DNA from: Flavobacteriaceae bacterium
GTDB lineage: Bacteria; Bacteroidota; Bacteroidia; Flavobacteriales; Flavobacteriaceae
Assembly (NCBI GenBank): GCA_029238125.1
Contig: JAQWGQ010000005.1
Location: 62,001-126,000 of the forward strand
Direction of reading: 5' to 3'
Length of the DNA stretch: 64,000 nt
Position numbers and translations under genes: made by a program. Shown piece by piece: positions 30,792 through 35,299 of the stretch (the stretch's first letter is position 1; every line of letters begins with the position of its first letter). The notes under the pieces were generated by a model. It saw only the letters and a program-made list of their open reading frames with translations, searched no databases and was not told the origin of the DNA.

Positions 30792-31904
30792 TTACAATAT
30801 GTTTTTAACGGGAACAAATGGTAAGGAAAAGACCTCAGCAACAGAGCGGTGAACCACTTTTCCTTGTACGATATTAAGTCCATTTGCCAAATGTGGAAAT
30901 TGTTTGCAGGCATTCTGCCAACCGAAATTGGCAAGTTTAACGGCGTAGTCAACGGTCACGTTTGACAGGGCTTTGGTTGAAGTTTGCGGTACCGCACCAG
31001 GCATATTTGCAACCGCATAGTGTAGAATATCGTCAACGACATAGGTCGGGTTTTGATGAGTGGTTGCTTTTGTGGTTTCAAAACAGCCACCCTGATCGAC
31101 TGCAACATCGACCAAAACGGCTCCTTTTTGCATAATACGGAGTTGTTTTCGAGTGATTAACTTGGGTGCTTTAGCACCAGGCACAAGTACCGCTCCAATC
31201 ACCAAATGGGCTTTGGGAAGATGCTTTTCAATTGCACTTAATGAGGACAAGCAAGTAGTTATGTTCTTTGGCATGATTGCTTGGAGTTCTTCAATCCGAT
31301 TGGGGTTAATATCGTAAATGGTCACATCAGCACCCATTCCAGCCGCTACCAAAGCAGCTTGAGTACCAACAACCCCGCCACCGAGGATCATCACATCGGC
31401 GGGAGAAACTCCTGAAACACCACCCATAAGAACACCCAATCCCCCTTGTGGACTTTCTAGGTATTTCGCGCCTTGCTGACTCGCCAAACGACCAGCGACT
31501 TCGGACATGGGGGTAAGTAGGGGAAGACCACCCTGATCATCAGTAATGGTTTCATAAGCCAAGCAGACCGCGTTGCGGTCAATCATGGCCTTGGTTAAAG
31601 ACGCAGAAGAGGCAAAATGAAAAAAGGTATAGATCAATTGGCTTTCTTGTATCAGATCAAATTCTTCGGGTAGGGGCTCTTTAACCTTGATGATCATATC
31701 GGCATATTGATAGACTTCTTTTGAATAAGATGCAATGGTTGCCCCAACTTTGAGATAATCATGATTTGAAAACCCACTACCAACACCCGCATTGTTTTCG
31801 ACGCAGACATCGTGTCCATGCGAAATCAGTGTTTGAACTCCATCTGGTGTAATTCCGATACGGAATTCATTATTCTTAATTTCTTTTGGGACTCCGATTT
31901 TCAT
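30792..31904 (-). CDS. ald: alanine dehydrogenase
   Basis: NAD-dependent oxidation of L-alanine to pyruvate and ammonia, and the reverse. It is 370 aa, the usual length. KEIKNNEFRIGITPDGV near residue 5 holds the substrate Arg and Lys region; the Rossmann loop VMILGGGVVGTQAALVAAGM lies near residue 168; PGAKAPKLITRKQL and VDVAVDQGGC follow. A complete -33/-7 promoter lies upstream (31951-31981). Confidence 0.95.
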   Translation of the reverse strand: MKIGVPKEIKNNEFRIGITPDGVQTLISHGHDVCVENNAGVGSGFSNHDYLKVGATIASYSKEVYQYADMIIKVKEPLPEEFDLIQESQLIYTFFHFASSASLTKAMIDRNAVCLAYETITDDQGGLPLLTPMSEVAGRLASQQGAKYLESPQGGLGVLMGGVSGVSPADVMILGGGVVGTQAALVAAGMGADVTIYDINPNRIEELQAIMPKNITTCLSSLSAIEKHLPKAHLVIGAVLVPGAKAPKLITRKQLRIMQKGAVLVDVAVDQGGCFETTKATTHQNPTYVVDDILHYAVANMPGAVPQTSTKALSNVTVDYAVKLANFGWQNACKQFPHLANGLNIVQGKVVHRSVAEVFSLPFVPVKNIL

Positions 31905-32066: not shown

Positions 32067-32252
32067 ATGAAAGGATTCAAAATTTTATTGGTCTGCGTAG
32101 CAAGTATTATAAGTTGTACAAGTCCAAATCCTCAAAACATTTCAACTGGGACGATTTCAAAGCACGTTATGGTGTCATCGGCCCATCCATTGGCGTCGGC
32201 GATTGGTATTGATGTCATGAAAAATGGCGGAAATGCAATTACATGGCTTTAG
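32067..32252 (+). pseudogene. ggt: 5' fragment of a gamma-glutamyltranspeptidase gene
   Basis: Only the first ~58 codons of a ggt-type gene remain. The reading starts with a lipoprotein signal (MKGFKILLVCVASIISC) and continues SSAHPLASAIGIDVMKNGG, the conserved N-terminal motif of gamma-glutamyltranspeptidases (normally SSHPLA...GGNAVDAAVA). After GGNAI the homology stops: the next bases (from about 32241) belong to the 3' end of the inverted cas9 fragment, and a stop follows 3 codons later. A full protein would be ~560 aa with a catalytic Thr in the missing part, so no activity is expected. No other ggt piece is in the window. Confidence 0.8.
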
Positions 32253-34089
32253 TACTTAAACTACCATAATCATCTTTAAAAACAACTTTAGCCAACAGTT
32301 TTGCATATTCCTCCTCAAATCCAAAACGATCGTTGAGTTTTTGAATAAGCATGTCATTACCGGTTTTAGAATCATCCCCTTCATACGAATAAAGTAAATG
32401 CCAAAATTGATAGGCAGGTTGTAGGGTAAAGGCATGTCCTTCCAAATCAGTATCCAATGCTAAAATTTGGGTGTTGATGCCTAACTCTGCGAAAACTTTT
32501 TGAATGCCTTCTTTTGTTTCAGTGCCATTTAATTTACTCCAGTCCACGTCGTGTCCAGAATGCAGTGCAATTTCTTTAAACTGGTCATAGAGTGCCTTGT
32601 TGGTTATATTTCCATCCAAACCATTCTTAAAGTTTATTTCCCAACCATCTTTTGACTTTAAATCGGTAAAGTTTAGTATTTGATTTAGACTAAGCTTGTC
32701 TTTAATGTTGAGCTCTCGAAATAGATTTTGCTTTAACTCTAAACTAGGAGAGCTCTTTTCTTTGGTTATTACATTCTTAAATTCTAAATCATTGAGCTTT
32801 TGCCAAATTTTATATTCTTGAAATAAGGGAGATGATTTGGGACAAACTTTTGGGCCAATTATTTTTCGTTTAACCTTTCCATCTTTTTCAATCTTCACCT
32901 CTTTGCCCTCCAATTCGCAAACACTAATCAATCCCTTTTGTGATTTTAAACGACGTTGATAAAAGATAATAATGTCTCTAATATGTGTTTTTAAATCCTC
33001 TGTTAATTCTATATGATGTTTAGACTGTGTTTCCCAAATTCGTTCAAATTCGTCCAAATAATCTTGACGGTAAAATACTTGAGATTTTAGTCTGTTATGC
33101 GGATTGGCTTTAATTTGATGATGTAAATATTGCCCTACCGTTTGTTTGTTAAAATATAACTCTTTGCTGCGATCACTTATTTTTCCCAAATAACCGCTTG
33201 AGCCACTTATTTGACGGTTTATCTCTTGGAAAACAATGGTTAATTGTTCCCAATTTAATTGTTCAGAAAGACCCTTCACACGCCATTGGTAGTTCTCTAA
33301 AACCAATTCTTTCCCTTTGACTGTTCGCTTTATTCCTTCTATCTTGAAGGCTTCTTCACAAATCTTATAGGTCTGTTTAGCACTTTTTTCAAAAAGATTT
33401 TGTTTGAGCTCGGGTATTAATTGTTCGGCATAATAGTTACTTTGTGTGTCCCAAATCTGATCAAATTCATTCTGCAAGTCAGACCGATAAAAATCAGGTG
33501 TTCCTTTTTTATCTGCTTCTATCCGTTGCACCATCAACTGCCCAGGTGTCAACTTTTCTTCATACAACTTTTTAGCTAACGCCATACCATCAACAGCTTG
33601 CCCGTCTCCTTCATCTTTTGCTTTGCGATTACTTTTATAACCTCTCTTTTTATTAATGGCAAAAAACACACGCGCTAATTCTTCTAAGCCTATTTGCTCG
33701 TTTGCCGTTTTCGCCCTCAATTCCCAAATCTCGTGATGAGCATTACTCCTCTCATCGGTAAGTTTTGTACTAGTAGAAATGATATTTGATGCAAGAAGAA
33801 TATCCTTCAATGCCTTTCTTCTCAATTTGTATCGATGTAAATTTCGTCTTGCTCCTCGCTTTGAGGTTCTTGATGCATTTGGTGATAATCCTTTACCTGA
33901 ACTAAAATCTTCTTCTGGTTTAGCAGAATCACTAACTTTTCCACTCTTTCTATCAACTTTACTAAAATTGTCGTATTGGATAATTCTAACTCCTGTTTTT
34001 ATAATAGATGATTGATTTTTTTGTGACTCATTTACCAATGCCCAGCCAATGCTGGTGGTTCCGAGGTCAAGTCCTAATATTTTTTTCAT
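32239..34089 (-). pseudogene. cas9: N-terminal 616-codon fragment of a type II-C Cas9
   Basis: The start has RuvC-I (MKKILGLDLGTTSIGWALV, catalytic Asp8), an Arg-rich bridge helix (RTSKRGARRNLHRYKLRRKA, about 73-92) and a long REC lobe with NKKRGYKSNRK near 148. The reading stops after KDDYGSLSTKAM, where the intact family continues RKILP... toward RuvC-II. HNH, RuvC-II, RuvC-III and the PAM-interacting domain, more than half of a ~1400-aa protein, are missing. The stop TAA (32239-32241) is created at the junction with ggt. No frameshift or internal stop is seen in the 616 codons, so loss is recent or the fragment is kept. Target cleavage is impossible as encoded. Codons are AT-rich like other acquired genes. 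Confidence 0.92.
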
Positions 34090-34105: not shown

Positions 34106-34113
34106 TATATTTG
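34106..34113 (+). promoter_or_regulatory. -7 box of the tracrRNA gene
   Basis: TATATTTG matches TAnnTTTG exactly, 16 bases upstream of the cas9 start codon and pointing away from cas9. It sets the likely tracrRNA 5' end at about 34118. Confidence 0.6.
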
Positions 34114-34117
34114 GTTA

Positions 34118-34200
34118 ACAATTTAAAGCGAATCACAATAAGGATTATTCCGTTGTGAAAACATTAAGTTGCCTCGTCTTATAATACGGGGCATTTTTTA
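34118..34200 (+). ncRNA. tracrRNA of the type II-C CRISPR-Cas remnant
   Basis: The anti-repeat is predicted at AACAATTTAAAGCGAATCAC; its reverse complement is a plausible II-C repeat start (GTGATTCGCTTTAAATTGTT). It runs into CACAATAAGG, the same junction seen in the Neisseria meningitidis tracrRNA (ACAATAAGG), then a short GGA-TTAT-TCC nexus-like hairpin, a single-stranded stretch and a terminator hairpin with a T-run. It is divergent from cas9, a usual place in II-C loci of Bacteroidota. The 5' end is inferred from the -7 box. The RNA appears intact although its Cas9 is truncated and no array is present. Confidence 0.8.
34170..34199 (+). terminator. Rho-independent terminator ending the tracrRNA
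   Basis: TGCCTCGT / ACGGGGCA forms an 8-bp stem with one G-U pair and an 8-base loop, followed by TTTTTT. Confidence 0.8.
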
Positions 34201-34211
34201 TTCCTTTTTCT

Positions 34212-34484
34212 TTACCCGTAAGCAGATTTTTTATACATATAAGGTTTTTGCGCATACAGACTTAGAGCGTGTGCATCATGTCCAGCATGTGAAATTTTTG
34301 AAATGGTTTGGTTTGGACTTTTGGGTAGATAGTCCATTTTTTTGCCTTTGTCAACAACCACTACTTCATGTTCATCATAGCGATTTTCAGCTTCAGAATC
34401 GGAGTACAATAGAATGGTGATCTCTAATTCCTTCCATATTTCAAGCACTCCATAGTATTGAATAGCTGCGGAATCGCAATGCAA
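34212..34484 (-). CDS. uncharacterised small ORF next to the tracrRNA
   Basis: A 90-codon open frame with only a TTG start (an in-frame stop lies 21 bases upstream of it). The predicted protein has an acidic middle (SDSEAENRYDEHEVVVVDKG) and ends basic (YMYKKSAYG); no domain is recognised. It could be the 3' remnant of a longer gene or a chance frame. It fills most of the region between the tracrRNA and the DUF2461 gene. Confidence 0.3.
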   Translation of the reverse strand: MHCDSAAIQYYGVLEIWKELEITILLYSDSEAENRYDEHEVVVVDKGKKMDYLPKSPNQTISKISHAGHDAHALSLYAQKPYMYKKSAYG

Positions 34485-34630: not shown

Positions 34631-35299
34631 TTAGATCAACGACTCCCCATCGGCATTGGTGGTCAGCACCTCACTCATATAGTTCACAAAGGGACGCACG
34701 GCTTGTAGGGCTTTGTTTGCGCGGTTAATAAAGTCGGGCTGGCAGATTTCCTTATCTGTGTAGTTAATGGTGAATATATGCTGCTTAAAACGCAAAAGAT
34801 CAATATGTGGGTGGTCTTTGGCATATCCCTTGGGTGCGGTTTTCACCGCTTCGCCTTGGAGTTCGCCCCAAACACTGTTGAATGTTTTGTTGTTTAGGAT
34901 AGAACGGTATTCTTCTCCATCGATGTCTATTTCTTGGCGGATGCGTTTTAAGTCTGCAGGGTTGGGATCCCAAAAGCCACAAGCGAGAAAGTTATTACCG
35001 GGAGACAAATGCAAGTAGTAGCCACCTCGATAGTGGGGCTTGGTGCGGTGCCATGTCAGTCCAAAATGTGTTTTAAAGGGAATTTTGTTTTTGGAAAAAC
35101 GCACATCCCGATAAATGCGAAACACCTTAAATCGATCAATGCTGTCATGGGTATTAAGCTGGTCTTTGAGTTGTTCCCCAAAGGCCTTGACTTGGGTTTC
35201 TAGGGCTTTAAAGGTGGGTTTATGCTCCATAAACCAATCCCGATTGTTGTTTTGTTGCAAGTCTGAAAAAAAAGAATAAATGCCTTTTGGTAATTGCAT
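34631..35299 (-). CDS. DUF2461 (TIGR02453) family protein
   Basis: A 222-aa protein of the DUF2461 family, found in bacteria and fungi and without known activity. It starts MQLPKGIYSFFSDLQQNNNR and has NRDWFMEHK, KVFRIYRDVRFSKNKIPFKT and GGYYLHLSPGNNFLACGFWD, the conserved core. No signal peptide, so cytoplasmic. It is divergent from the small membrane operon. Confidence 0.85.
   Translation of the reverse strand: MQLPKGIYSFFSDLQQNNNRDWFMEHKPTFKALETQVKAFGEQLKDQLNTHDSIDRFKVFRIYRDVRFSKNKIPFKTHFGLTWHRTKPHYRGGYYLHLSPGNNFLACGFWDPNPADLKRIRQEIDIDGEEYRSILNNKTFNSVWGELQGEAVKTAPKGYAKDHPHIDLLRFKQHIFTINYTDKEICQPDFINRANKALQAVRPFVNYMSEVLTTNADGESLI

Follow-up and report, generated by a model that had tools for sequence, protein, structure and literature searches.

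How did half a cas9 gene come to stand head-on against the first codons of ggt, a gene that is intact in congeneric genomes? The arrangement lies in a 64,000-nt stretch of contig JAQWGQ010000005.1 (the window), to whose positions all coordinates given without a contig or locus name refer. The original prediction was that one deletion could have removed the rest of ggt, the C-terminal part of cas9 and the adaptation genes. From what follows, it is very probable that a recent single deletion ran across ggt, a 139-aa gene next to it, the array/cas2/cas1 end of a type II-C locus and the C-terminal part of cas9, leaving a dead locus behind.

Re-reading of the sequence and its open reading frames confirmed the head-on junction of ggt (plus strand) and cas9 (minus strand), which occupies 32240-32242 and has no strand of its own: ggt extends to 32240, cas9 begins at 32242, and base 32241 lies between them. 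The ggt 5′ fragment (32067-32252, plus strand) starts with an ATG at 32067 and matches GGT through the residues GGNAI, the last base of which is 32240 (58 codons); the frame then reads T-W-L before a stop at 32250-32252, giving 58 genuine and three read-through codons, 61 in all. The fragment has no Pfam match, and its assignment is based on identity to congener GGTs (53-67%, E about 1e-10 to 3e-21), which are intact at the matching site (563-573 aa). On the other side, the cas9 orf (32239-34089, minus strand; 616 aa) ends in …DYGSLSTKAM, with its final sense codon, ATG, at 32244-32242 and a TAA at 32241-32239. That this stop codon was made by ggt antisense sequence, as had been proposed, holds for two of its three bases, which belong to the ggt Ile codon, while the third, 32241, comes from neither parent: ggt would need G here (GAT, Asp in the congeners shown), and in Cas9 relatives the position following KAM or KAI is occupied by R or K in nearly every case, H or A being rare. 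Because it fits neither, base 32241 would be either a single base of filler or the product of a substitution after the event.

The minus-strand frame is identified as the N-terminal part of cas9 by TIGR01865 (201 bits, E 3.7e-59; cut-off 100 bits) and by alignment with full-length relatives, although no Pfam family was matched. Eighty genome loci encode relatives of the fragment, mostly 1370-1461 aa when full-length, the nearest in the aligned set being 62% identical. By alignment the fragment spans what we take, from general knowledge of Cas9, to be RuvC-I, the bridge helix and the REC lobe; RuvC-II/III, HNH and the PAM-interacting domain are absent, and at 616 aa vs ~1400 it is not the full-length Cas9 with RuvC and HNH of a functional type II-C system. 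None of the 76 residues at columns invariant among 72 relatives is changed. At columns conserved at the 95% level, 4/149 residues are changed, the relatives' median being 1.5, with 14 of the 72 as high or higher. Because the fragment shows no decay, the loss is taken to be recent, as the clean 616-codon frame had suggested; a young deletion alone explains such a frame, so that no function need be invoked, and we read the fragment as a probable young pseudogene. Three other Cas9 frames among the loci, of 1036, 670 and 1062 aa (L067, L089 and L124), end well short of the contig end and are possibly further truncated cas9 genes.

On the left, the site is anchored by ald (alanine dehydrogenase; 30792-31904, minus strand; TIGR00518, 493.9 bits), which adjoins ggt in congeners, and on the right by a DUF2461 gene (34631-35299, minus strand; PF09365, 1.7e-66, and synteny), with the his operon next to it. 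Five congener contigs reach across the site (G012, G002, G005, G006 and G001, the last without the ald end), and a sixth (G008) begins just ahead of ggt. The congener order is ald (minus strand), intact ggt (plus), the 139-aa gene (plus) directly after ggt, variable cargo, DUF2461 (minus) and the his genes; in the window, ald, the ggt stump and cas9 are followed by DUF2461 and his in their expected places. Between the 139-aa gene and DUF2461, G002, G001 and G005 carry no sizeable cargo, and G012 carries a TonB fragment. This interval, whose contents differ from congener to congener, is a small cargo hotspot that takes up foreign and defence genes. Comparison with close relatives, in which an intact order of ggt through cas2, cas1 and cas9 had been expected, thus gave a divided answer: congeners have the intact ggt order, but no genome of the same species with an intact locus was found. 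As further cargo at the hotspot, G008 carries an ORF6N-HNH gene (L031:2371-3129) and G006 a partial EcoRI-type adenine methylase (L035:6646-7137).

The source genome (G000) is metagenome-assembled and fragmented, with 1.47 Mb spread over 38 contigs and a completeness of 82%, so absences from it are no proof. The missing parts of ggt and cas9, which should be gone if they were deleted, were indeed not found elsewhere in this 82%-complete genome: it yielded no GGT and no Cas9 C-terminus matching the fragment. A search with the C-terminal part of a relative's Cas9 gave two matches, both to another Cas9, on contig C21, which is much less closely related. Neither Cas1 nor the 139-aa gene was found in the 82%-complete genome; judged by the Cas1 search, it lacks the cas1/cas2 component of a functional type II-C system. 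The only sequences there matching the tracrRNA anti-repeat as an array repeat would are the tracrRNA itself and one stray with three mismatches; the stray, on C21, was rejected as an array, being inside a tyrS-like gene.

The premise that cas1 and cas2 usually lie downstream of cas9 was upheld in 59 of the 66 relatives (out of 80) in which their position could be judged, where they are just 3′ of cas9 and on the same strand. This 3′ side is now ggt in the window, and cas1, cas2 and an array presumably once stood there. In one II-C locus (L070:13285-14519), cas1 and cas2 are inverted with respect to cas9, and a HIRAN gene lies upstream. Gene sizes in congeners and relatives would put the deletion at a minimum of about 5.6 kb (ggt ~1.5 kb, the 139-aa gene 0.5 kb, cas9 2.35 kb and cas1-cas2 1.2 kb), plus an array of whatever length. 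Loss of the rest of ggt, the cas9 C-terminal part and the adaptation genes in a single deletion is thus supported by congener order, by the absences from the genome and by the 59/66 relatives.

What remains of the locus has the canonical order of the relatives, is homologous to intact loci and is cut at a junction with foreign sequence, as a remnant would be. An intact tracrRNA (34111-34205, plus strand), divergent from cas9, came to light when cas9 relatives were compared; it has an anti-repeat (34119-34139), a nexus and a terminator hairpin, the anti-repeat and terminator being those parts that a functional type II-C system has. Its core, CACAATAAGGATTATTCCGTTGTGAAAACATT, is divergent from cas9 in most of the 80 relatives, and core plus tail are found beside cas9 in relatives in the same position and orientation. 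The predicted fold has a z score of -3.45, better than all 200 shuffles; no tracrRNA family in Rfam was matched. A second tracr-like match in the same genome (contig C3) was dismissed as chance, being inside an integrase-like coding frame. Beyond the tracrRNA lies the relic of a HIRAN-domain gene (34212-34484, minus strand), recognised because the HIRAN genes that adjoin cas9 in L126 and L042 resemble it (29-30%; E 7e-10 and 2e-9), the L126 protein matching PF08797; the relic has no Pfam match of its own, and its upstream part is interrupted by stops. HIRAN genes accompany some Bacteroidota II-C loci, 3′ of cas9 in L057, L123 and L126 and 5′ in L070 and L077.

These parts are consistent with a type II-C locus that would have sat in the hotspot, bounded by the 139-aa gene on one side and DUF2461-his on the other, its cas9 facing ggt. 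One recent deletion would then have cost cas9 its C-terminal 56% and ggt about 90% of its length, together with the 139-aa gene and the array/cas2/cas1 end of the locus; the ends would have met with little or no homology, perhaps gaining one base. The deletion would have spared half a Cas9, a tracrRNA that is intact but has no crRNA to pair with, and a HIRAN gene that had decayed earlier. That last point could instead be read as part of the locus dying before the deletion, in two or more steps, with CRISPR lost first and ggt eroded separately afterwards, or in the opposite sequence; this is unlikely, as the junction is single and clean, no further scar lies between the anchors, and a single event is enough.

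The assembly itself is fragmented, in 38 contigs of the kind expected from a metagenome bin, where two unrelated pieces could have been joined. However, ald-ggt and DUF2461-his neighbour each other in congeners too, with order and orientation unchanged, which argues that the join is a deletion and not a chimera of distant loci, and both sides of the join are unique sequences, unrelated to each other, with no repeat there able to mislead an assembler; a chimera is accordingly very improbable. If the REC lobe still bound RNA or acted as a decoy, for example, the 616-aa fragment and tracrRNA might be retained for such a use, which would fit the clean frame, in which every invariant residue is kept, and the intact tracrRNA. 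A recent deletion predicts an equally clean frame, though, the stop sits at the scar, the fragment has no HNH, RuvC-II/III or PAM-interacting parts, and no array was found in the 82%-complete genome; we give retained use hardly any credence. The single recent deletion is preferred to all of these, and one event would be responsible for everything seen at the junction, the cas9 fragment presumably being without function.

Beyond the original prediction, the 139-aa gene was also lost, and the tracrRNA and HIRAN relic survive; new here are the nature of the site, a cargo hotspot, and a parallel scar in the congener G012. In a genus-wide search with the tracrRNA, the only match other than chance besides the window locus was in G012, at the same hotspot, and across 1.68 Mb of loci the full tracrRNA tail pattern is otherwise confined to loci carrying cas9. 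The minus strand beside the G012 tail reads MKKFTNLYSIQKT and includes FTNLYSIQKT, which agrees in all 10 residues with the start of a complete Cas12a from G502. A loose Cas12a-start pattern found only Cas12a genes and the G012 site in 3.4 million translated residues; the short G012 start itself gave no match against PDB and plasmids. Here a TonB receptor gene, normally of about 980 residues, breaks off at residue 412 and stands head-on with 13 Cas12a codons, and up to 8 nt at the join, GTTTTTTG, are present in either parent. The G012 scar (contig C10; L029:9838-11190) thus comprises a TonB truncation, a Cas12a start and a type II-C tracrRNA tail relic. As in the window, a truncated plus-strand gene faces the minus-strand start of a class 2 effector, with tracrRNA sequence alongside (intact in the window, a tail relic in G012); unlike in the window, the effector is Cas12a, only 13 codons of it remain, ggt is intact and the join has up to 8 nt common to the parents. 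A class 2 effector stump thus stands head-on with a truncated plus-strand gene at one hotspot in two sister species, and the G012 tracrRNA tail likely derives from the same II-C insertion as that of the window.

Loss of a Cas9 locus by deletion is already known. In Mycoplasma gallisepticum, the Cas9 locus, within a defence island, has undergone partial deletions that also took neighbouring genes; deleted isolates have lost the tracrRNA with the array left, and point mutations account for shortened Cas9 forms, one of which stops within the REC lobe (PMC11893278). The window resembles this case in the partial deletion of the locus together with a neighbour and in a Cas9 truncated in the REC lobe, but the survivors differ, the tracrRNA being kept and the array gone, as does the cause of truncation, which in the window is a scar fused to the neighbouring gene. 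The window is thus a new instance in a new lineage with different survivors. A cas9 with upstream tracrRNA is also found at the Flavobacterium psychrophilum FpCas9 locus (PMC10309648) and at a Chlorobiota metagenome-assembled locus (L053), both of which keep the full cas9, cas1 and cas2 that the window has lost. Literature phrase searches matched no paper on CRISPR loss, remnants or orphan tracrRNA. The window scar represents an ordinary loss of bacterial immunity in a small-genome flavobacterium. CRISPR-Cas loci are gained and lost fast, yet a fresh scar is rarely caught together with an empty site in a sister species, and with one hotspot freshly scarred by II-C loss in one species and carrying a V-A/tracrRNA scar in a second, the rate and mode of loss could be measured in this genus.

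The distant Cas9 homologue on contig C21, outside the window (C21:10222-13653; L145:5223-8654, plus strand), has 1143 codons, the larger part matching TIGR01865 (259.7 bits), and one in-frame TAA at codon 202 in G000. Its G012 orthologue (L187:3506-6937), in a 20-kb collinear stretch, is uninterrupted. In both genomes Thr replaces the catalytic Asp of RuvC-I, Phe the Glu of RuvC-II, and Val and Tyr the Asp and His of HNH, with the RuvC-III His and Asp kept. dN/dS between G000 and G012 is 0.129 (1142 codons), with 0.03-0.106 in seven neighbouring genes, so that loss of catalytic residues is combined with retention by selection, as in a nuclease-dead protein. Around both copies no cas1, cas2 or array was found; upstream of the C21 gene are a tracrRNA-like sequence (minus strand) and strongly conserved hairpins, and a 16-nt motif, TATTGTGATTTGATAA, which may be a relic repeat, follows its stop, although a second copy is ancestral to the site. 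The whole unit is absent from G005, leaving a clean empty site.

The C21/G012 protein is a candidate natural nuclease-dead Cas9 (dCas9), the part most likely to surprise specialists; if functional as such, it deserves far more attention than the scar. A few phrase searches of the literature matched nothing on natural dead Cas9 beyond two reviews that word it differently, which is weak evidence of novelty, and a phrase search on dead effectors likewise matched no paper. It is possible, though we hold this only tentatively, that the lineage sheds nuclease-competent class 2 effectors (half a Cas9 in the window, 13 codons of Cas12a in G012) and keeps the C21 protein as an RNA-guided DNA-binding protein, e.g. 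a regulator. On the Persicobacter plasmid pPP11, an annotated Cas9 (WP_338399666.1; L051:4373-7921) has Ser in place of the RuvC-I Asp and has lost the HNH motif; an array of 26 repeats lies near it, and a second Cas9 on the plasmid is accompanied by cas1-cas2. The pPP11 and C21 proteins are alike in lacking the RuvC-I Asp and the HNH motif, but only that on pPP11 has an array nearby.
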